From: an uncultured Pelagibacteraceae bacterium | GTDB taxonomy: Bacteria; Pseudomonadota; Alphaproteobacteria; Pelagibacterales; Pelagibacteraceae | Length of the DNA: 64,000 bases | NCBI GenBank assembly: GCA_902517615.1 | Contig: CABYCY010000009.1 | Coordinates: 1-64,000 of the forward strand | Direction of reading: 5' to 3' | Shown: piece after piece, positions 34,387 to 40,841 of the stretch | Layout: every line of letters begins with the position of its first letter | Position numbering within the stretch: position 1 is the stretch's first letter | Made by a program: the position numbers and the translations under genes | The notes under the pieces: generated by a model | The model's database searches: none | Told to the model about the DNA's origin: nothing | The model's input: only the letters and a program-made list of their open reading frames with translations

Positions 34387-34462
34387 GCCCTTGTAGCTCA
34401 GCTGGTAGAGCAATTGATTTGTAATCAATAGGTCCGCGGTTCGAATCCGTGCGGGGGCACCA
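34387..34462 (+). tRNA. tRNA-Thr (anticodon TGT), anchor of the first island
   Basis: 76 nt with encoded CCA. GCCCTTG pairs with CGGGGGC; the D arm is TAGCTCAGCTGGTAGAGC and the T arm CGCGGTTCGAATCCGTG. The anticodon loop TTTGTAA in an ATTGA/TCAAT stem gives TGT, threonine. A decayed copy of its anticodon-to-T-arm portion recurs at 36975-37004, so the gene appears to have served as an integration site for the DNA between. Confidence 0.97.
34416..34445 (+). repeat. attL-like direct repeat inside tRNA-Thr
   Basis: Starts in the anticodon stem of tRNA-Thr. Against 36975-37004 the first 15 bases (GATTTGTAATCAATA) are identical and 25 of 30 match overall. The crossover class in which tyrosine integrases use the anticodon stem-loop fits this boundary. 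Confidence 0.65.
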
Positions 34463-34527
34463 TCACTCAATAAAATCAACGTTAAATATTTTTTAAAAAT
34501 TAGAAATACATCCGTTAAAACACAATC

Positions 34528-34560
34528 ACTGTGTTAATAGTGTGTTAGGAGTGTGTTAAG
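34528..34560 (+). repeat. three tandem 11-bp repeats, left end of tRNA-Thr islet
   Basis: ACTGTGTTAAT, AGTGTGTTAGG and AGTGTGTTAAG follow one another without spacing. The 11-bp period equals one helical turn, and similar units occur at the other end (36895-36916). Arm-type integrase sites are the best analogy; this is an inference. Confidence 0.6.
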
Positions 34561-34572
34561 GTCAAGTGGTCG

Positions 34573-34950
34573 TTAATTAATAAATTCTTTTTTTAAATCA
34601 CATTCATAATGATCTAAAAATTTATCATTTTTATAATCATATTTAGACATTGTGATTGTAGGTTTCGTTTGTCCTTCAAAAACTATTCTTTGGAAACCTA
34701 ATTCATATTCTGGAAATTTAACGGTGAATCTATCTTCGCCAAACTCTAATTCTTTGCTAGGGATAATTATAAATTTATTTTGTTTTTCATCAAAATAATG
34801 AAATCCTGTTGCTTCAAGTTTATAGTTTAAAGGCTCAAATTTCTTTCCAAAAGCTGACAACATATTTAAACAAGAAAGATTTAAACCTTGGTCTGCATAA
34901 GATATTGATGGAAATAATAAAATTAAAAAAAGGATAATGATTTTTTGCAT
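34573..34950 (-). CDS. exported two-cysteine protein of unknown function
   Basis: 125 residues. Residues 1-19 are a good signal peptide (basic K3, hydrophobic IIILFLILLF, cleavage after SYA). The mature part is about 105 residues, mostly predicted strand with alternating hydrophobic residues, and has just two cysteines, C27 near its start and C117 near its end, suggesting a disulfide that closes the domain. A similar Cys-near-start, Cys-near-end layout recurs in two exported proteins of the next island. I do not recognise the family. It is the gene closest to tRNA-Thr in the islet, 63 bp from the next one. Confidence 0.75.
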   Translation of the reverse strand: MQKIIILFLILLFPSISYADQGLNLSCLNMLSAFGKKFEPLNYKLEATGFHYFDEKQNKFIIIPSKELEFGEDRFTVKFPEYELGFQRIVFEGQTKPTITMSKYDYKNDKFLDHYECDLKKEFIN

Positions 34951-35013
34951 CTTTAAATCATCATATTATTTAAAGTCTATTTATTGTCTCAATAATGGCA
35001 GATTAAAGTTTTT

Positions 35014-35388
35014 TTAATTCAACTTATTTCTTTCACAATCTCTATCAATCGTTTGCCAGTCCCCTTCTTCAAAAGGTATATCCATATCGTTTAAAACTCT
35101 TTTAAACTTCTCAAGTCTGTCTGCACGTCCATTAATACTTTTTAGGTACATAAAAAACCACTTAAATGCAGATTTTCCTAAACCGTTTTTATCAATATGA
35201 ATCCAATTTTCAAAGTCCATACATTGAGTGGTGTTATAAGTGTACTCATCATAACTTATCTTTTTTCCATCATCACTTAATGAGTCAGACCAGCTGCAAA
35301 TTTGATTTTTTCCCTCATCGATAACTCGATAAGCTTCATAGTGATCAGAAAGATTTATTGAATTAAAATCTAATTCTAATTGTTTCAT
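35014..35388 (-). CDS. small acidic cytoplasmic protein of unknown function
   Basis: 124 residues, no signal peptide or membrane segment. It is acidic overall and rich in aromatic residues (SAFKWFFMYLKS, WQTID, WIHIDKNG), and looks like a folded alpha/beta protein. I recognise no domain. The start ATG at 35388 is preceded 16 bp upstream by a 16-bp sequence (35405-35420) that recurs in front of another islet gene and contains a TATAAA on the coding strand, so it is probably independently transcribed. Open frame of normal composition; the call that it is a real gene rests on length and position. Confidence 0.6.
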   Translation of the reverse strand: MKQLELDFNSINLSDHYEAYRVIDEGKNQICSWSDSLSDDGKKISYDEYTYNTTQCMDFENWIHIDKNGLGKSAFKWFFMYLKSINGRADRLEKFKRVLNDMDIPFEEGDWQTIDRDCERNKLN

Positions 35389-35404
35389 AGTTTATGTGTT
35401 GCTG

Positions 35405-35420
35405 AAGTTTATACGTTAAA
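35405..35420 (-). promoter_or_regulatory. 16-bp repeated element, copy 1 (promoter-like)
   Basis: Exact repeat of 35968-35983. Read on the coding strand it is TTTAACGTATAAACTT, with a TATAAA that could be a -10 box. It lies 17 bp before the start codon of the 124-residue protein; copy 2 lies 15 bp before the start of the 55-residue protein. The same distance and orientation suggest a shared promoter or operator. Confidence 0.5.
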
Positions 35421-35470
35421 GAACTTTAACAATTATTAATATAAAGATTAATTATGTCTTTTTTTTGAAT

Positions 35471-35788
35471 TTAGTCCAACATTTCTAAAAACCAATCAGG
35501 CAAATCATCTGGATTTGTTATGCAAATATCTTTATCTGCAATGCCATACTTTGTTAACTGGACTGTAATATCTGCTATTCCATACCTTGTTAATTCCACT
35601 AAAGAATAAGTTCCTGCATTTTTGCAGCTACCAACTATCTTCCAAGTCTCATCCCCAATACCATACTTCGTGATGTCAATTGTAAGATCAGGAATTAAAT
35701 ACTTTGTTATCTTGATAGCATAAGTATTAGCAGCAACAATATTGGTCCAAAGAAAACCCAGAACCACGATCCCTAAAAGTTTTTTCAT
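35471..35788 (-). CDS. exported protein with 12-residue TKYGIAD repeats
   Basis: 105 residues with an N-terminal signal peptide (MKK, then a hydrophobic stretch to about residue 20). The mature chain has four copies of a [IL]T[KR]YGIAD-like unit, at T28, T40, T67 and T79: two pairs, each with a 12-residue period, separated by a linker with C55. The last unit is followed by C89 and an acidic DDLPDWF tail. The repeat period suggests stacked short strands. I do not recognise the family. Its start overlaps the stop of the preceding 55-residue membrane protein as ATGA, so the two are translated together. Confidence 0.75.
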   Translation of the reverse strand: MKKLLGIVVLGFLWTNIVAANTYAIKITKYLIPDLTIDITKYGIGDETWKIVGSCKNAGTYSLVELTRYGIADITVQLTKYGIADKDICITNPDDLPDWFLEMLD

Positions 35789-35952
35789 TTATTCTTATCT
35801 CTAGTGAACTGATTAATGGTTTCACCATACTTTTTGATTTTTTCAAATTCTTCTTGTTGTGCTTTCTTTTTCTTTTCTGATGAATAATAAATTGGCATTA
35901 TAATTGATAAGCCGACGATAATAATTGCTAATATAATTTGCCAAGTATCCAT
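35785..35952 (-). CDS. small single-pass membrane protein, 55 residues
   Basis: Reads MDTWQIILAIIIVGLSIIMP, then IYYSSEKKKK and a charged helix AQQEEFEKIKKYGETINQFT. One membrane helix (about 5-23) with an N-out, C-in orientation expected from the lysine cluster, followed by a probable coiled cytoplasmic tail. It is too short for standard gene finders, but it has an ATGA overlap with the repeat protein downstream and the 16-bp promoter-like element 15 bp upstream, which together support it. Function unknown; a partner or anchor for its neighbour is a guess. Confidence 0.65.
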   Translation of the reverse strand: MDTWQIILAIIIVGLSIIMPIYYSSEKKKKAQQEEFEKIKKYGETINQFTRDKNK

Positions 35953-35967
35953 TTAGTTATCTACTAA

Positions 35968-35983
35968 AAGTTTATACGTTAAA
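35968..35983 (-). promoter_or_regulatory. 16-bp repeated element, copy 2 (promoter-like)
   Basis: Identical over 16 bp to 35405-35420, 15 bp upstream of the 55-residue membrane protein start, same orientation. See copy 1. Confidence 0.5.
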
Positions 35984-36014
35984 AATGATAATTCTAAAAT
36001 TATAAGTGCTTCTA

Positions 36015-36881
36015 TCAAATTGCACCCATCATCATAGCAATACCAGCTCCACCACCCATTGCTGCTAAAGTTTTTCCATGTTTTTTAATTTGATCTCTAA
36101 ACCAATCATAAATTTCTGAAACCTCTATTTTTTTAAGTTGTTTTTTAACAACTATTAAAACTACTAAACCAATTATTATTCCAAGAAGTGGACTAGCAAA
36201 TAAACTTGCTGTCATTATAAAAGAACCCATTCCCAATAATCCTTCGATCGTTCCTTTTTTGAATGCTTTTTTGTTTTTATCTTTGGTATAAGATTTTGCC
36301 CATGAAACTATTGATACAATCAATAAAATTGGATTAGCACTAACAGCGCCAGCTAATATCAAAGATGATGCTAAATTTGCAAATTCTTCTTTTTCATGTT
36401 TCTTCCATCCAAACATTAAGGCCACAACGCCTATAGTTGCGCCAAATATTTCTGATAAGTTCACGCTTTGAATATCAAGTAGCCAACTTTTTTTAACAGC
36501 AAATTTTTCACTCATATGTATTGCAAATTTATCAAATGCTTCTTTGTTATCTATATTATGTAATGGAATACCCATTGGTGTTTGAAGATCTTTAAATAAA
36601 GATAAAAAATAATTTTTTAATTCTTCGAAGTTGCTATCGTTAGGCAAAGTCTCTTTAACCTTTTCCCACATTTGTAACGGTGTATGACTTCCATCAAAAT
36701 GTCTGTGAGTGAAACCACCTATATGCGTTTCGTTATAAAATTTGTCAATTTGTTGATCGTAGACAGTTGCCTTGTCATCTATTATTTTTGATAATGATTT
36801 TTCAACTTTCTTTCCAAAGGGAACTGAAAATAATCCAGCTATACCTAAAGCTGCTTGTCTTAATCTTTTTATAAAATACAT
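36015..36881 (-). CDS. polytopic membrane protein with an HRHFDGSH motif, function unknown
   Basis: 288 residues from the ATG at 36881; a GTG at 36896 would add five residues (VYFF-type) and is less likely. Residues 1-135 are soluble and helical and contain the His-rich HRHFDGSH at 59-66 followed by TPLQMW, a candidate metal or active site. From about 146 there are four hydrophobic segments (146-159, 168-193, 213-246, 273-287), and the chain ends in a Gly/Met-rich hydrophobic tail. Basic stretches between helices indicate inner-membrane location. I do not recognise the family. The upstream region holds the right-end 11-bp repeats of the islet, so its promoter would overlap them. Confidence 0.7.
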   Translation of the reverse strand: MYFIKRLRQAALGIAGLFSVPFGKKVEKSLSKIIDDKATVYDQQIDKFYNETHIGGFTHRHFDGSHTPLQMWEKVKETLPNDSNFEELKNYFLSLFKDLQTPMGIPLHNIDNKEAFDKFAIHMSEKFAVKKSWLLDIQSVNLSEIFGATIGVVALMFGWKKHEKEEFANLASSLILAGAVSANPILLIVSIVSWAKSYTKDKNKKAFKKGTIEGLLGMGSFIMTASLFASPLLGIIIGLVVLIVVKKQLKKIEVSEIYDWFRDQIKKHGKTLAAMGGGAGIAMMMGAI

Positions 36882-36894
36882 GAAAAAATATACC

Positions 36895-36916
36895 ACTGTG
36901 TCTATAGTGTGTATAG
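36895..36916 (+). repeat. two tandem 11-bp repeats, right end of tRNA-Thr islet
   Basis: ACTGTGTCTAT followed directly by AGTGTGTATAG. They resemble the three units at the left end (ACTGTGTTAAT / AGTGTGTTAGG) in sequence, length and orientation, and lie 59 bp inside the decayed tRNA-Thr repeat. Confidence 0.55.
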
Positions 36917-36974
36917 ATTTGAAATAGTTTTAAATTAATATTGATAGTATTTATCTTTTTGAATTTAGACTCTC

Positions 36975-37004
36975 GATTTGTAATCAATAAATCCACAGAT
37001 CGAA
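36975..37004 (+). repeat. attR-like decayed copy of the tRNA-Thr anticodon/T-arm region
   Basis: 15 of the first 15 bases and 25 of 30 overall match 34416-34445 in tRNA-Thr, in the same orientation. The T-arm part keeps ATCGAAA-like sequence but has lost pairing, so it is not a functional tRNA. It marks the probable right edge of the islet. Confidence 0.65.
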
Positions 37005-37007
37005 ATT

Positions 37008-37145
37008 TTACCAGGCTGTCAATTTCCAACACTCATTTGCATCTTCAATACGGGCATAACAACCCAGAAAAGACATAATTTTAAATGCACAAAAACCTCC
37101 AACTAAAATAATGACTACAAACATTATTGGATTAATTTTTTTCAT
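37008..37145 (-). CDS. small membrane protein, 45 residues
   Basis: Reads MKKINPIMFVVIILVGGFCA, then FKIMSFLGCYARIEDANECW and KLTAW. A single hydrophobic helix (about 7-25) follows a basic start; three cysteines (C19, C29, C39) are present, a high number for so short a protein. The frame ends four bases outside the decayed tRNA-Thr repeat. Its start codon lies 4 bp below nadK. Real but unrecognised is my best guess; it is too short for strong support. Confidence 0.45.
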   Translation of the reverse strand: MKKINPIMFVVIILVGGFCAFKIMSFLGCYARIEDANECWKLTAW

Positions 37146-37149
37146 TTAT

Positions 37150-37920
37150 CTAACTAGTCTCTCTTCTTATTTGCTCAATTTTAATCTTTTTTTGTAAGCT
37201 TCTATTTTTATCATAAAGAAGATTAAACTTTATTTTATTATTTATTTTAACAACAATTGATTTTGCATTCCTTACTTCTAAATTATCAGCAACAGCACTA
37301 ATAGGCCTTTTAGATGGGTTTAAATTATTTATAATAATTTTAGTCTTATCATTTACAATTTTGCCTTTCCATCTTCTTGGTCTAAACGCACTTATAGGAG
37401 ATATGGATAATTTTTTTGAATGTAAGCTTAAAATCGGTCCATGAACTGACAAGTTGTAGGCCGTACTACCAGCTGGTGTTGATACTAGTACCCCATCAGA
37501 AACTAATTCTTTAATAATCTGTCTTGGACCCTGCTTTATTGACAATGATGCAGCCTGTCTACTTTGTCTAAGTACTGAGACTTCATTAATTGCTATCGAT
37601 CTTTTAATCTGATTATTTTTATTTTTAACAATCATTTCTAAAGGTGAAATTGAAACCATATTTGCTTTAGATAAATTTTTAATTATATTTTTTGATGAAA
37701 ATTTATTCATCAAAAACCCGTAGTTTCCTGAATTTATTCCATAAAATTGTTTTTTTAAATTCTTATTTTTTTTAAGTGTTTGAAGCATAAAGCCATCACC
37801 TCCAATCACAACGACAAGGTTTTTTTTCTTAAAATGACTGGTTTCTAATTTTTTAATTAAAAGTTTTTTAATTAAGGAAGATTTTTTATTTTTATCAGAA
37901 ATTATCTGAAGTTTAATCAT
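37150..37920 (-). CDS. nadK: NAD kinase
   Basis: 256 residues from the ATG at 37920 (MIKLQIISDKN). The frame is open 14 codons further, but those lie inside tRNA-Leu, so that start is rejected. VVIGGDGFMLQTLK is the GGDG ATP-binding motif and LVSTPAGSTAYNLSVHGPIL the NAD-binding signature. It phosphorylates NAD to NADP and is essential in most bacteria. It lies between the two islands and is probably the original neighbour of tRNA-Leu; only 5 bp separate its start codon from the tRNA. Confidence 0.94.
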   Translation of the reverse strand: MIKLQIISDKNKKSSLIKKLLIKKLETSHFKKKNLVVVIGGDGFMLQTLKKNKNLKKQFYGINSGNYGFLMNKFSSKNIIKNLSKANMVSISPLEMIVKNKNNQIKRSIAINEVSVLRQSRQAASLSIKQGPRQIIKELVSDGVLVSTPAGSTAYNLSVHGPILSLHSKKLSISPISAFRPRRWKGKIVNDKTKIIINNLNPSKRPISAVADNLEVRNAKSIVVKINNKIKFNLLYDKNRSLQKKIKIEQIRRETS

Positions 37921-37925
37921 TTTAG

Positions 37926-38011
37926 TGGTGCCCTCGGCCAGACTCGAACTGGCACTCCGCAAGCGGCAAGGATTTTAAGTCCTTTGTGTCTACCAATTTC
38001 ACCACGAGGGC
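37926..38011 (-). tRNA. tRNA-Leu (anticodon TAA), anchor of the second island
   Basis: 86 nt with encoded CCA and the long variable arm of class II tRNAs. GCCCTCG pairs with CGAGGGC; the D arm is TGGTGAAATTGGTAGACAC and the T arm CCAGTTCGAGTCTGG. The anticodon loop CTTAAAA in an AAGGA/TCCTT stem gives TAA, leucine. The 5' half up to the anticodon loop plus 72 bp of upstream DNA is repeated at 40327-40437. Confidence 0.97.
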
Positions 38012-38083
38012 ATTAATGAATTTCATGAGTATTTATGCTAATATTTATAATTGAACAAGGGTAATAAGTAAAATTTTTTTAAT
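37973..38083 (+). repeat. 111-bp direct repeat, copy at tRNA-Leu (functional side)
   Basis: Covers the tRNA-Leu 5' half, starting exactly in the anticodon loop (37973), and 72 bp upstream of the gene. It matches 40327-40437 at 107 of 111 bases; all four differences lie in the outer 35 bp. The repeat includes the likely tRNA promoter (38030-38058). Confidence 0.95.
38030..38058 (-). promoter_or_regulatory. candidate promoter of tRNA-Leu
   Basis: On the minus strand TTGTTC (38058-38053) and TAAATA (38035-38030) are 17 bp apart, with the tRNA 5' end 18 bp below the -10. The same two hexamers are preserved in the repeat copy (40384-40412), where they no longer serve a full tRNA. Confidence 0.4.
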
Positions 38084-38085
38084 TT

Positions 38086-38115
38086 ATCTCTCTATGCTCT
38101 AGTCATGCTCTAGTT
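38086..38115 (+). repeat. 30-bp repeat with two tandem 11-bp units, left end of tRNA-Leu islet
   Basis: ATGCTCTAGTC (38094-38104) and ATGCTCTAGTT (38105-38115) are in tandem. The 30-bp block matches 40172-40201 at 28 of 30 bases in the same orientation. The distance from the anticodon-loop boundary is 113 bp here and 126 bp at the other end. Confidence 0.75.
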
Positions 38116-38159
38116 ATCCCATAAAGTCCTATAATAATTAGTTAACATTTGTTAATTAC

Positions 38160-39023
38160 CTAACTAACTTTTTTTATTCCCTTTTTTGATTTAAAATACT
38201 CTTTTTTAAGTTTTTTTAACCTATCTTTGTCAGCCGAGTTATACAATGGTAAACCAAAGAAATGTCTTTCACTTAAGTCTTTAACATCCTCGAATACAAG
38301 TTTTTGACCTCGTTCGAATTTTAAATAATTTCTATTTTTCAAAAAAATAAAATTATTAGAGCTATTTTTAAATAATTTAGCCTTATACAAATACAACAAA
38401 CTATCTAGATCTTTTACAACATAACTTTGAAGGTTCACGATATCGTAATTTGTAGTGTCTTTTTTAATTGTACTTTTTCTTTTTTTTTTCTTCTTAGTTT
38501 CTATTGATCCACCAAATGGAAGTGCACCAATATTCTTTGCCATCTTCTTTTCTTTAGCATTATAATCATACCATCTACATCGGATTGAAAAATTAAACCT
38601 ATTTAAAGATATACCTGCCTGATCAATTCGTGAAGTAAACATGCCTGTTCTTCCATCTGATCCTATAGACACACTGTTGTTGTAATTATATTTTATAATC
38701 TTACCTTTATCACCCTTAATATCTTGCTGATTAGTATAGTTGATGCCAGCACCTGTCTTTCTAAAATTTAATACACCTTGATTAATACCAGTAATAACAC
38801 TCATTTGACTACTTTCAGAAAGATCGTAAACTAAATTTTCATCCAGATCTATTTTGAGCTTAATTACTTTGCCTGCAAATCTGTCAAATTCAGATTTATC
38901 TAACTTTGCTTTTTTCAGATCTGATTTACCTATAAGACAAAACATATCTAGAACTTCTGAATAAGATGGATTGGTTAAAAAAATATTAAATAAAAATAAT
39001 ATAAAAAGTTTTTTCATAATCAT
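38160..39023 (-). CDS. exported protein of unknown function, partner of the protease gene
   Basis: 287 residues. A signal peptide spans about 1-22 (MIMKKLFILFLFNIFLTNP, cleavage near SYS). The first 150 residues of the precursor form a strand-rich domain with C29 near its start and C149 near its end (FSIRCRWYD). A Lys-rich linker (KKKKKRKST) leads to a helical, basic C-terminal part (about 190-287) without recognisable domain. The start codon overlaps the protease stop as TAATG, so the two are co-translated and probably act together outside the inner membrane. A second in-frame ATG two codons on may be used. I recognise no family. Confidence 0.75.
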   Translation of the reverse strand: MIMKKLFILFLFNIFLTNPSYSEVLDMFCLIGKSDLKKAKLDKSEFDRFAGKVIKLKIDLDENLVYDLSESSQMSVITGINQGVLNFRKTGAGINYTNQQDIKGDKGKIIKYNYNNSVSIGSDGRTGMFTSRIDQAGISLNRFNFSIRCRWYDYNAKEKKMAKNIGALPFGGSIETKKKKKRKSTIKKDTTNYDIVNLQSYVVKDLDSLLYLYKAKLFKNSSNNFIFLKNRNYLKFERGQKLVFEDVKDLSERHFFGLPLYNSADKDRLKKLKKEYFKSKKGIKKVS

Positions 39024-40150
39024 TAATTACAATAAGTATAAACAGTTCCCTCTTCTAAAATTGCTAACAATTTATCATTCTCTTTTATTCCAGCATACAT
39101 TGATTTTTTAGGATTAATCTTATTTGATCTTAAAAATACTTCTGCTGCTGATGATTTTATACCAAAGTTAATCCCTTCTGTTTGGTCTTTAGCTAACCCT
39201 GAGACGGCTATTGCAACTAGATCACCATTTTCATTAATAATAGGCCCACCACTGTTACCTGGATTTATTGGTGCATCAATTTGTATTTCGTTAGAGTTAT
39301 CTTCAAAACCTTTTAGTGAACTGACTATTCCAGATGATATTTTAAGATCATTACTTAAGCCCTTACCAAGTGGATATCCTGCCACATAAACTTTGTTAAG
39401 TTTCTTTGCTTCATCTTTTGAAAAGATAAAAAAAGATTTAGGTTTGAGTTCAGCCTTAAGCAAAGCAAGATCCAGAGTTTTATCTGTTGCTATTAGTTTT
39501 GTATCATAATCTTTATTTTTATAGGAAATTTTAGATAGTGTGCATCCTTCAACTACATGATTATTAGTTAACAAATGACCTTTATTATTAATAAAGAAAG
39601 CTGTACCACTTGAAGCTCCACTGTTTCCATCTTCATTTTGATTTTCTCTATCACATTTTAGAATAGCAAAATTTCTGCCATATACCGACTCTTTAAAATT
39701 ATTTAATATTGTAATTAATTCTTTTCCTGCTGAATTAATTCCCCTATCATAAATTTCTATCGTGTTTTTATCTAAATTTATAAAAATTTCTGTTTCAGTC
39801 TTTATTGAAGCGCCATTAGAAATTTCTTCTTCTTCCATCTTAGCTGTTATTAAATCTTTATCAAAATAAGTGATAAAAAATTCTGCATTGTTAACTCTAC
39901 TTACGCTATCGTTAGAATTGGATGAGTCCAAAGCATCATTGATAGTATTAGTTAAAATGTTTGAATTTACAACTGACCTAAAGACTTTTGCATTATCAAA
40001 ACTTATATAATATTCATTCCTATCTCTTCCTATCTCTTTTTTAGGATTATTATTTTTATCCAATATCAAACAGTTTTTAAATATGATGTCTGCATTACTG
40101 TAATTAAAAATAGATAAAAGTATAAAAATTGAACTTAAAATTATTCTCAT
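39023..40150 (-). CDS. secreted trypsin-like serine protease (S1C/HtrA-like, no PDZ) with an N-terminal two-cysteine domain
   Basis: 375 residues. Signal peptide about 1-20 (cleavage at SNA). Residues 21-170 are a separate strand-rich domain with C27 and C166. From about 175 comes a chymotrypsin-fold protease: H198 in TNNHVVEGC, D227 in KTLDLALLK and S300 in NPGNSGGP, so the triad is complete. No PDZ domain follows; the chain ends shortly after the protease fold, which distinguishes it from DegP/DegQ. It probably works in the periplasm. The N-terminal domain resembles the layout of its partner and of the 125-residue islet protein, and may bind substrate or partner. Confidence 0.85.
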   Translation of the reverse strand: MRIILSSIFILLSIFNYSNADIIFKNCLILDKNNNPKKEIGRDRNEYYISFDNAKVFRSVVNSNILTNTINDALDSSNSNDSVSRVNNAEFFITYFDKDLITAKMEEEEISNGASIKTETEIFINLDKNTIEIYDRGINSAGKELITILNNFKESVYGRNFAILKCDRENQNEDGNSGASSGTAFFINNKGHLLTNNHVVEGCTLSKISYKNKDYDTKLIATDKTLDLALLKAELKPKSFFIFSKDEAKKLNKVYVAGYPLGKGLSNDLKISSGIVSSLKGFEDNSNEIQIDAPINPGNSGGPIINENGDLVAIAVSGLAKDQTEGINFGIKSSAAEVFLRSNKINPKKSMYAGIKENDKLLAILEEGTVYTYCN

Positions 40151-40171
40151 TTAATTAAGCTTATAATATTA

Positions 40172-40201
40172 TCTCTCCATGCTCTAGTCTTGCTCTAGTT
40201 T
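40172..40201 (+). repeat. 30-bp repeat with two tandem 11-bp units, right end of tRNA-Leu islet
   Basis: 28 of 30 bases match 38086-38115. The units are ATGCTCTAGTC and TTGCTCTAGTT. It lies just upstream of the protease gene start and could also affect its promoter. Confidence 0.75.
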
Positions 40202-40280
40202 GAGCAAATTAATTAAGCCTTATTCTCTAACATTAGTAGAAAGCTAATTTAAAGTAATGAGATTTTATAGGATGTTTTAG

Positions 40281-40320
40281 ACTTCCTTGGACTACTATAG
40301 ACTGACTTTAACTTCTATCC
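40281..40320 (+). repeat. four degenerate 10-bp repeats next to the tRNA-Leu copy
   Basis: ACTTCCTTGG, ACTACTATAG, ACTGACTTTA and ACTTCTATCC follow in register, all beginning with ACT. They abut the tRNA-Leu remnant. No counterpart is visible beside the intact tRNA-Leu. They could be further recombinase-binding units; the similarity is weak. Confidence 0.35.
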
Positions 40321-40437
40321 CTCGGCTTTTAAGTCCTTTGTGTCTACCAATTTCACCACGAGGGCATTAATGAATTTCATGAGTATTTATGCTAATATTT
40401 ATAAATGAACAAGTCTAATAATTAAAATTTTTTTAAT
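40319..40437 (-). pseudogene. tRNA-Leu remnant (5' half plus promoter, possibly an acceptor fragment)
   Basis: 40327-40437 is the 111-bp copy of the tRNA-Leu 5' half and upstream region. Directly next to it, 40319-40326 reads CCCTCGGC, the same 8 bases that lie at the tRNA-Leu 3' end (37931-37938). If not chance, this is a whole tRNA-Leu copy that has lost 34 bp (variable and T arms). It cannot fold into a tRNA. The region 40151-40436 contains no coding gene. Confidence 0.75.
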
Positions 40438-40841
40438 CAAGACCCTTGTAAACCTTTCTTAAGATATTTTTCATTTAAATTACAATCTTTATAACCTCTC
40501 TTAACAATATTTAAGTATCTTTCAGTTGGAAACTTAAATGGTGATTTATTAACCATTGTATAAGTCATAACTTTTTTTCCATAATAATTAAAAAAATATT
40601 TTTTATATAAAATAGGAAAATCCTCGTAAACATCTAATTTTTTTTCATCACTTTTTGATATTTCGAATAAACCTCCTGGAACTATTGAGTTTCTTTTTGG
40701 CTCAATATCTGCAGCTCTATATTTGCTTCTAAAAGTTAATCTAAAGTCTTTTAAATTTATTTTTTTAAGAAAAATACTATCCTTGCATCTTCTTTTCATT
40801 TGAAAATGATGAAGATTACTGCCGTAAGCAAAATATAACAT
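40437..40841 (-). CDS. gamma-glutamylcyclotransferase-like (GGCT/AIG2) protein
   Basis: 134 residues. The start MLYFAYGSNLHHFQM holds the YGSNL motif that binds the gamma-glutamyl group, and LDVYEDFP provides the conserved Glu of the family around residue 80. GGCT-like enzymes release 5-oxoproline from gamma-glutamyl compounds; the true substrate here cannot be told. Its stop codon overlaps the last bases of the tRNA-Leu repeat copy, so the islet boundary reaches up to this gene. The start overlaps the stop of the CinA-like gene (TAATG). Confidence 0.82.
   Translation of the reverse strand: MLYFAYGSNLHHFQMKRRCKDSIFLKKINLKDFRLTFRSKYRAADIEPKRNSIVPGGLFEISKSDEKKLDVYEDFPILYKKYFFNYYGKKVMTYTMVNKSPFKFPTERYLNIVKRGYKDCNLNEKYLKKGLQGS

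Follow-up and report, generated by a model that had tools for sequence, protein, structure and literature searches.

Several described systems separate a mobile element from the enzyme that moves it. Cis-mobilizable elements (CIME), a term also applied to the ssrA islands of Dehalococcoides, have no genes for integration or transfer, keep the left and right attachment sites (attL and attR) and accrete in tandem at an RNA gene (PMC5704250; PMC3146451). Clusters of attC sites lacking integron integrases (CALIN) and miniature inverted-repeat transposable elements (MITEs) are non-autonomous, are recognised by their end sites and have their enzyme encoded elsewhere (PMC11389934). Cluster K mycobacteriophages have a core flanked on either side by 11-bp arm sites in pairs, and in them site variants accompany changes in the N-terminus of the integrase and a phage of mixed type is possibly transitional (PMC3203893). 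Likenesses to each of these are found in the 64,000-nucleotide stretch analysed here (the window; contig CABYCY010000009.1, positions 1 to 64,000), which belongs to a Pelagibacteraceae (SAR11) chromosome, a purB query having returned 80 loci of Pelagibacteraceae that are 90–95% identical. Two small islets in it, one beside tRNA-Thr(TGT) and one beside tRNA-Leu(TAA), end in tandem 11-bp direct repeats and encode no integrase. Judged from sequence and layout, it is very probable that the repeats represent arm-type sites of cassettes without an integrase, and probable that helper elements with matching arms mobilise these cassettes in trans.

Among elements of marine bacteria, tRNA genes are targets of virion-encapsidated integrative mobile elements (VEIMEs), tycheposons and phage-inducible chromosomal minimalist islands (PICMI), which the helpers described below resemble in looking satellite-like (PMC11389934; PMC10872708; PMC10803314). 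An island of Methylopumilus has recurring 20-bp tRNA-Lys ends (PMC10872708). HTVC019P-like pelagiphages share with the islets the attachment at tRNA-Leu in SAR11 but, unlike them, are full phages (PMC3861242). Tyrosine recombinases and tRNA genes have been reported beside a transferred phn operon in Pelagibacterales (PMC12416821), and two further papers report islands, with nothing on these tRNA sites in the parts consulted (PMC7318151; PMC7542561). No description of integrase-less SAR11 islets with arm sites was recognised in searches of the Creative Commons-licensed papers of PubMed Central.

Repeats at the four islet ends

An earlier note on this DNA had described tandem 11-bp direct repeats at all four islet ends, and the sequence confirms them at 4/4 ends, just inside duplicated tRNA fragments and beyond chance in shuffles. 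Islet 1 carries ACTGTGTTAAT AGTGTGTTAGG AGTGTGTTAAG at its left end and ACTGTGTCTAT AGTGTGTATAG at its right end, and islet 2 carries ATGCTCTAGTC ATGCTCTAGTT and TGCTCTAGTCT TGCTCTAGTTT, respectively (positions in Table 1). The unit counts and positions given in the note hold, except that its frame at the right end of islet 2 was one base off. Its claim that the two ends of each islet share their own unit is right for islet 2; in islet 1 the ends have mainly ASTGTGT in common, the second half of the right-hand units being diverged. With up to three mismatches, TGCTCTAGTNNTGCTCTAGT occurs twice in the window against a shuffle mean of 0.04; with up to two, ASTGTGTNNNNASTGTGT occurs four times, three of them in islet 1, against a mean of 0.58, and 0/100 shuffles reach four. 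Period-11 pairs of 9-mers (at least 8/9 identical, at least three GC) stand at six places in the 64 kb, three of which are islet ends, and the fourth end, the right one of islet 1, scores 7/9. Duplications of the attachment type bound the islets, namely the tRNA-Leu 5′ half with about 73 bp upstream and a remnant of the tRNA-Thr 3′ half.

Islets in relatives and agreement between their ends

Many of the purB loci have islets at these two tRNA sites, bounded by tRNA-Leu positions 1 to ~39–44 or by tRNA-Thr from ~23–31 onward, and tandem 11-bp units lie at similar places in them, with a sequence that varies from islet to islet. For tRNA-Leu, purB loci and motif-search loci gave 87 entries, and dropping six duplicates left 81, which are 79 non-redundant islets (0.85–5.65 kb, 62 cargo groups) and two helpers (G179 and G247). 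The left unit is typically 83 nt from tRNA-Leu and the right one ~146 nt from the half-tRNA copy, with exceptions including L044, L055 and L294. Of the 79 islets, 62 have a tandem unit where expected on the left, 64 on the right, 56 on both sides and 70 on either, counts that are inflated where loci were added by the motif at one end; the control gave 18 of 16,200 random windows. Among loci chosen by purB alone, 14/19 islets with a half-tRNA copy have a repeat at one end at least and 8/19 at both, whereas only one of 26 filled tRNA-Leu sites without a recognisable half copy has a left repeat (these 26 being drawn from 28 single-copy purB loci, and the other 25 having no left arm). In L025 and L048 the tRNA-Leu site is empty, and the distance from the tRNA to the next gene is 75 and 74 nt, respectively; for the half copy of the window it is likewise 75 nt.

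The two ends of an islet agree with each other better than with the ends of other islets. Own-end agreement was 18.3/20 against 13.5 for cross pairs in the 63 testable tRNA-Leu entries of the 81 (the others have no period-11 pair of at least 7/9 at one end), and the end-matching total was 1151, the highest of 20,000 shuffles reaching 933. The 106 islet ends that are readable show 19 different 9-base units, of which the CnRGT part is fixed by the reading procedure. Tandem arrays preserve the unit of each islet: in L287 the two ends of one islet read ACGT and those of its neighbour GTTT, with the exception of one changed right unit. Homologous cargo (62–75% identical) in L334, L308 and L358 is accompanied by three different units, and in each case the left and right ends match. 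The tRNA-Thr sample consists of 19 segments minus the helper G039 and L297, which spans ppnK. In these 17 islets the left repeat is present in 16, and own ends agree at 10.0/11 versus 9.06/11 for cross pairs, with 0/20,000 shuffles as good.

A motif was searched in the form TTATCTC-N7..9-CTRGT-N6-CTRGT, with four bases per unit free; its TTATCTC part is the box next to the islet arms, which as GAGATAA also adjoins helper arms. This motif is present in 94/399 genus genomes, and the reversed pattern in none. The free bases agree between the two units at 4/4 positions in 77 of 110 distinct matches, at 3/4 in 29 and at 2/4 in four, and never above 2/4 in the 18 distinct viral-contig matches that served as the chance control. 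The units mostly flank a tRNA gene, a check proposed in the earlier note, and neither of the outcomes that it named as refuting, random scatter or occurrence solely as parts of promoters, was seen: 77 of 118 matches are placed at exactly 78 nt from the core of tRNA-Leu, five more on the same side within 11 nt of this position, and 16 at 138–140 nt on the other side. The remaining 20 have no exact core within 300 nt; eight of them are at a third site and the rest at contig ends, at changed cores or elsewhere. At the third site, the unit GTATCTAGT stands at the 5′ end of a conserved SAR11 gene of ~75 aa (MTPENASKLWKIIQEAGDYL...) in eight loci (L331, L361, L373, L374, L328, L346, L342 and L359), and repeats of the gene end follow 1.9–3.6 kb downstream in 6/8.

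Integrase-encoding helper elements

Elements of 7.7–8.8 kb that encode an integrase are present at both tRNA sites and carry repeats of the same kind as the islets, so that helper integrases do adjoin such repeats, the other check proposed in the note. G179 has an integrated 8.8-kb element at tRNA-Leu with genes for an integrase (551 aa) and a primase. The 7.7-kb element of G247, also at tRNA-Leu with an integrase (545 aa) and a primase, lies where islet 2 lies in the window, flanked by ppnK and GGACT/cinA, and a 7.7-kb element of G039 occupies the site of islet 1, with the unit TGTAGTCAA at both ends. Six viral contigs have the tRNA-Leu 5′ half and repeats beside an integrase of 515–549 aa: L087, L114, L125, L115 and L119 carry a unit pair on both sides, and in L121 the left side has a pair and the right side irregular units. 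Terminal redundancy is present in L087 and L121, whose integrases match PF00589; those of L115 and L119, without a Pfam match, are called integrases because they are 32–38% identical to these two. A further viral contig, L164, encodes an integrase of 328 aa and has the tRNA-Thr core flanked by unit pairs. In helpers, the units of the right side fall within the integrase gene, in the 5′ portion of its coding sequence.

The units themselves connect helpers with islets. Both TGTGCTGGT of G179 and GTTTCTAGT of G247 are identical to islet units, GTTTCTAGT being the commonest (24 of the 106 readable ends) and TGTGCTGGT the second (17). The left arm of G179, AACCAGCACAAGACCAGCACAT, equals islet ends in L023, L040 and L081, and the unit of the viral helper L114 (GATCCTAG) resembles that of islet L322.

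PHROGs detected a primase and a RusA-like resolvase, and no capsid or terminase family, in a scan of nine proteins longer than 110 aa that G179 and G039 encode besides the integrase; with integrase and primase present and no capsid family among the proteins scanned, the helpers look satellite-like. No tblastn match to the G179 integrase (E ≤ 1e-5) was obtained in 50,697 phage records. Helpers occur in IMG/VR; by the motif, islets do not, and the one islet-type end there, in contig L100, is not caught by the motif itself. Related integrases use the 5′ part of tRNA-Ser (L300) and tRNA-Cys (L384), with tRNA identities as read; a wider integrase search of viral contigs gave eight loci, among them a partial copy and the helper L384 at another tRNA, and the integrase of G010, 34–36% identical to that of L164, is by eye at another tRNA. 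Candidates from other scans were set aside: the listed BLAST matches of the tRNA regions to phage records were mainly phage tRNA genes, and a tRNA-Thr scan of viral contigs returned mostly complete tRNA genes, with L164 the sole useful match.

The N-terminal region of the integrase and the unit

The G039 integrase contains Arm-DNA-bind_3 (PF13356) at residues 4–92, so that an arm-binding domain is found in a cognate integrase, as a core with arm repeats on both sides is in islets and helpers. Pfam reported no arm domain in the integrases of G179 and G247. A model of the L121 integrase, poor overall (mean predicted local distance difference test score, pLDDT, 54) and firm in the catalytic part alone, matches lambda Int (E 1e-4) and, weakly, the arm-domain structures 3ju0, 3rmp and 3jtz (E 0.05–0.3). 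In pairs with different arms, residues 28–130 are less conserved than the rest of the protein (52% versus 96% in L115/L119 and 78% versus 94% in L087/L114), and in pairs with the same or similar arms they are not (97% versus 94% in L087/L125 and 78% versus 58% in L299/L121). In this comparison of eight related proteins, whose pairs are not independent, the region diverges with the arm unit, the pattern that arm binding predicts.

Carriers without the enzyme

The G179 integrase has matches in 8/399 genomes, comprising five open genes of 535–560 aa (one of which is just 27% identical to that of G179), one broken gene and two short, weak matches. Of the 94 motif genomes, 89 are without such a match, and the other five, three of them with an open gene, are among the eight. 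Seven helper integrases were compared by tblastn with the 79 tRNA-Leu and 17 tRNA-Thr islets, and none had a match except for a remnant in L055, which extends to these relatives the statement in the note that the islets encode no recombinase. The remnant is a weak helper-type integrase N-terminus at the right end of the islet (L055:4892–5124, E 1e-4 to 9e-4). No helper integrase is present in the genome of the window, which is 91% complete; its one PF00589 gene (325 aa) is of a kind conserved in most of the genus members listed and is presumably Xer.

Movement, exchange of ends and cargo

The islets of L295, L296 and L283 are 99.7–99.9% identical over 2344 bp beside ppnK genes that are 77–79% identical, and near-identical islets beside diverged neighbours indicate recent horizontal transfer. 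L295 and L296 differ at five of ~2350 interior positions and at 43 of the outer ~264, including all four units, and L282 and L283 carry mixed ends with the change-over at the arms. Since the ends differ around constant cargo, end modules have been exchanged, presumably by recombination between islets. In our reading, both ends may come to match through selection for a shared helper.

The 81 tRNA-Leu entries contain 188 open reading frames (ORFs) of at least 60 aa, 23 of them in the two helpers, and 169 are on the tRNA strand. A crude rule for secretion signals is satisfied by 73/188 of these ORFs versus 8/183 chromosomal ones. The clusters have 119 representatives 80 aa or longer, and 106 were scanned with Pfam and PHROGs, helper and window proteins and four short ones being left out. 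Among the 25 commonest families listed, matches include restriction-modification, McrBC, Mads defence, superoxide dismutase, proteases and others; no integration or transfer genes are among these 25, no search specific to transfer genes having been made.

Features of the window and side observations

Table 1. Features of the two islets and their surroundings; coordinates are those of the window
Feature	Coordinates	Strand	Basis
tRNA-Thr(TGT), islet 1 attachment site	34387..34462	+	ARAGORN
Islet 1, ~2.5 kb, without integrase	34463..36974	.	Bounds are tRNA-Thr and degraded 3′-half copy
Islet 1 left putative arm-type sites, three 11-bp units ASTGTGTTAnn	34528..34560	+	Sequence
Islet 1 cargo, 125 aa, no Pfam match	34573..34950	-	ORF and Pfam
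Islet 1 cargo, 124 aa, no Pfam match	35014..35388	-	ORF and Pfam
Islet 1 cargo, 105 aa, no Pfam match	35471..35788	-	ORF and Pfam
Islet 1 cargo, 55 aa	35785..35952	-	Relatives 61% and 63% identical beside tRNA-Thr copies (L017 and L307)
Islet 1 cargo, 288 aa, no Pfam match	36015..36881	-	ORF and Pfam
Islet 1 right putative arm-type sites, two 11-bp units, second half diverged	36895..36916	+	Sequence; period score 7/9
Degraded tRNA-Thr 3′-half copy (far attachment site)	36975..37004	+	83% over 30 nt
tRNA-Leu(TAA), islet 2 attachment site	37926..38011	-	ARAGORN
Attachment repeat copy 1: tRNA-Leu 5′ half and 73 bp upstream	37970..38083	.	109/114 nt identical to copy 2
Islet 2, ~2.3 kb, without integrase	38012..40323	.	
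TTATCTCTC box (GAGAGATAA on tRNA strand) adjoining islet 2 left arm	38084..38092	+	Sequence
Islet 2 left putative arm-type sites, two 11-bp units	38094..38115	+	Sequence
Islet 2 cargo, 287 aa, N-terminus secretion-signal-like (by eye), no Pfam match	38160..39023	-	
Islet 2 cargo, trypsin-like peptidase (Trypsin_2)	39023..40150	-	Pfam, E 2.9e-27
TTATCTCTC box adjoining islet 2 right arm	40169..40177	+	Sequence
Islet 2 right putative arm-type sites, two 11-bp units	40180..40201	+	Sequence
Attachment repeat copy 2: chromosomal tRNA-Leu 5′ half and upstream	40324..40437	.	109/114 nt identical to copy 1
Chromosomal neighbour, GGACT family, first gene past site	40437..40841	-	Pfam

Partial relatives of the trypsin-like peptidase of islet 2, 40–43% identical, are found near the same site in L022 and L029. 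An islet-2 unit pair occurs without a tRNA in a convergent intergenic region (L004:1501–1520), between genes that by eye are aminopeptidase-like and dihydroxyacetone-kinase-like. In an armless 2.13-kb family of tRNA-Leu islets, the half copy extends to tRNA position 40–44. The viral contig L100, with T4-like genes (phoH), ends in a single islet-type end (L100:4423–5129), which consists of a lipoprotein-like gene, the arms TGTACAGGT twice, a GAGATAA box and the promoter and 5′ half of a SAR11-type tRNA-Leu; the contig is possibly a vehicle, or else a chimeric assembly.

Explanation and alternatives

The interpretation of the repeats as arm sites, which the earlier note had put forward, is strengthened by their near-constant distance to the tRNA core in most tRNA-Leu islets, the same layout in tyrosine-integrase elements at both tRNA sites, the identity of units between two such elements and islets, the Pfam arm domain in one helper integrase with a weak fold match in another, and the divergence of the integrase N-terminal region that tracks the unit. 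The 11-bp direct repeats would thus be arm-type binding sites of tyrosine integrases, and in the circle of a tRNA-Leu islet ~125 bp would separate the first arm from the tRNA core and ~75 bp the core from the second arm. A helper integrase with a matching N-terminal arm-binding domain would integrate and excise the islet in trans, the unit being an address that selects the helper able to act on a given cassette. At tRNA-Leu(TAA) the core would lie near the anticodon and the element would supply the 5′ half and the promoter; at tRNA-Thr(TGT) it would supply the 3′ half. As the larger integrase elements carry the same kind of tags, the islets are probably moved by borrowed enzymes. We infer that integrases bind the repeats and act in trans, that helpers are autonomous and that a vehicle carries islets from cell to cell.

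Mobilisation in trans, which the note had proposed and which the matching of helpers and islets supports as an inference, is also favoured by the lack of helper integrases in the islets (the L055 remnant aside) and in the genome of the window, by their rarity among carriers and by the recent horizontal transfer of islets. Several observations weigh against it. No integrase-encoding element with the units of the window itself (TGCTCTAGT, AGTGTGTTA) was found, and its exact units are absent from the viral contigs. No excised, circular or packaged islet was seen, and the motif scan of viral contigs, with matches in 26, gave L121, a helper, as the sole real arm site. The genomes are incomplete, and some helpers may therefore have been missed. 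By motif matches GTTTCTAGT still ranks first (19/110), but TGTGCTGGT is only joint sixth (7/110). Helper right-hand units are less regular, with a spacing of 11 bp in L115/L119, 12 in L087/L114/L125 and 25 in G179. Five of the 19 purB-chosen islets are armless, all of them in the 2.13-kb family (L013, L046, L052, L061 and L069); the ends are unlike in some islets (L282, L286, L304 and L029); and the right ends of tRNA-Thr islets are weak, reaching at least 8/9 in 1/17 and at least 7/9 in 7/17, compared with 63/5400 and 192/5400 control windows. The exchange of end modules shows, moreover, that homologous recombination also acts here.

If islets were dead relics, that is, decayed integrase elements of the CIME kind that have lost the integrase and all else between their ends, whose arms are fossils and which nothing moves now, one would understand that their ends are organised as helper ends are, that L055 retains a weak integrase N-terminus, that some arms are damaged or unlike, and that so many single-copy purB loci are filled sites that lack both half copy and left arm. 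This account is nevertheless unlikely, because 79 islets with 62 cargo groups have no match to a helper integrase or primase besides the L055 remnant, near-identical islets in distant hosts point to recent movement, and the related cargo of L334, L308 and L358, with three units matched at both ends, is hardly expected of fossils. Spread by homologous recombination through the tRNA, promoter and shared ends, for example after natural transformation, with the arms as passengers, is improbable to the same degree. The end differences of L295/L296 and the mixed ends of L283/L282 are recombinational exchange, and outer ends are conserved between islets; yet such spread leaves unexplained why arms are present and match from end to end and with helpers, and the flanking ppnK is not carried along, while the arms accompany the half-tRNA copy.

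Movement of the islets by a chromosomal recombinase of the Xer type, or by an unrelated enzyme of the host, is very improbable. The 325-aa PF00589 gene in the genome of the window, as in most genus members listed, would provide such an enzyme, but a single conserved enzyme would not yield 19 unit types matched between ends, and Xer recombination needs no arm sites. Slightly less credible still are regulatory sites (promoter, terminator or operator) of the cargo or tRNA. The repeats are indeed intergenic in islets, the left ones upstream of tRNA-Leu; against this, they keep a near-constant distance to the tRNA core and the same orientation at both ends, are absent from 25/26 filled sites without an attachment copy, and occur in integrase elements whose left spacer differs. 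The preferred account is that arm-matched helpers mobilise the islets in trans.

Relation to known systems and significance

The islets come close to CIME in several respects: the seven helper integrases have no match in the 79 and 17 islets except for the L055 remnant, attL and attR are kept as half-tRNA copies with arms, and tandem arrays occur. Bearing on mobilisation in cis are these arrays and an islet of G281 that adjoins an integrase element. Of decay from an integrative and conjugative or mobilizable element (ICE or IME) there is one weak sign, the L055 remnant, the cargo being otherwise unlike that of helpers. Islets differ from CIME in that each end has arm sites, whose unit changes from element to element and agrees with that of separate helpers, that the cargo of ~0.3–5.7 kb is unlike that of helpers, and that transfer of the islet alone is implied, not solely in cis with a neighbour (PMC5704250; PMC3146451). 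In contrast to CALIN and MITEs, the site is a tRNA core with phage-type arms, and instead of IntI or a transposase the enzyme would be a tyrosine integrase of the phage type (PMC11389934). The arm sites of cluster K, unlike those of islets, lie in phages that encode their own integrase, and P3/P4 are inverted in CrimD (PMC3203893). Tycheposons (4–200 kb) are far larger than islets, which encode no recombinase, and no tyrosine recombinase of their own was found in the two islets of the window (PMC10872708).

A wider picture, which is tentative and more doubtful than mobilisation in trans itself, is that of a cassette economy in SAR11, in which integrase-less cassettes of ~0.3–5.7 kb, labelled by arm-site barcodes and rich in secreted and some defence proteins, would be moved by integrases of the phage type, encoded by small helpers that have no known capsid genes. 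The helpers may be phage satellites, and the islets satellites of satellites that change helper by swapping end modules. SAR11 bacteria are among the most abundant cell types of the ocean, and their gene content varies though such an integrase is present in few of the genomes that were searched; arm-matched helpers would offer a specific route, open to testing, by which small cargo passes between them. A code of arm recognition and its evolution can be tested directly on the natural series of integrase N-domains and arm sites, and the islets show how an element that lacks a recombinase may retain, and also alter, its address for a helper.

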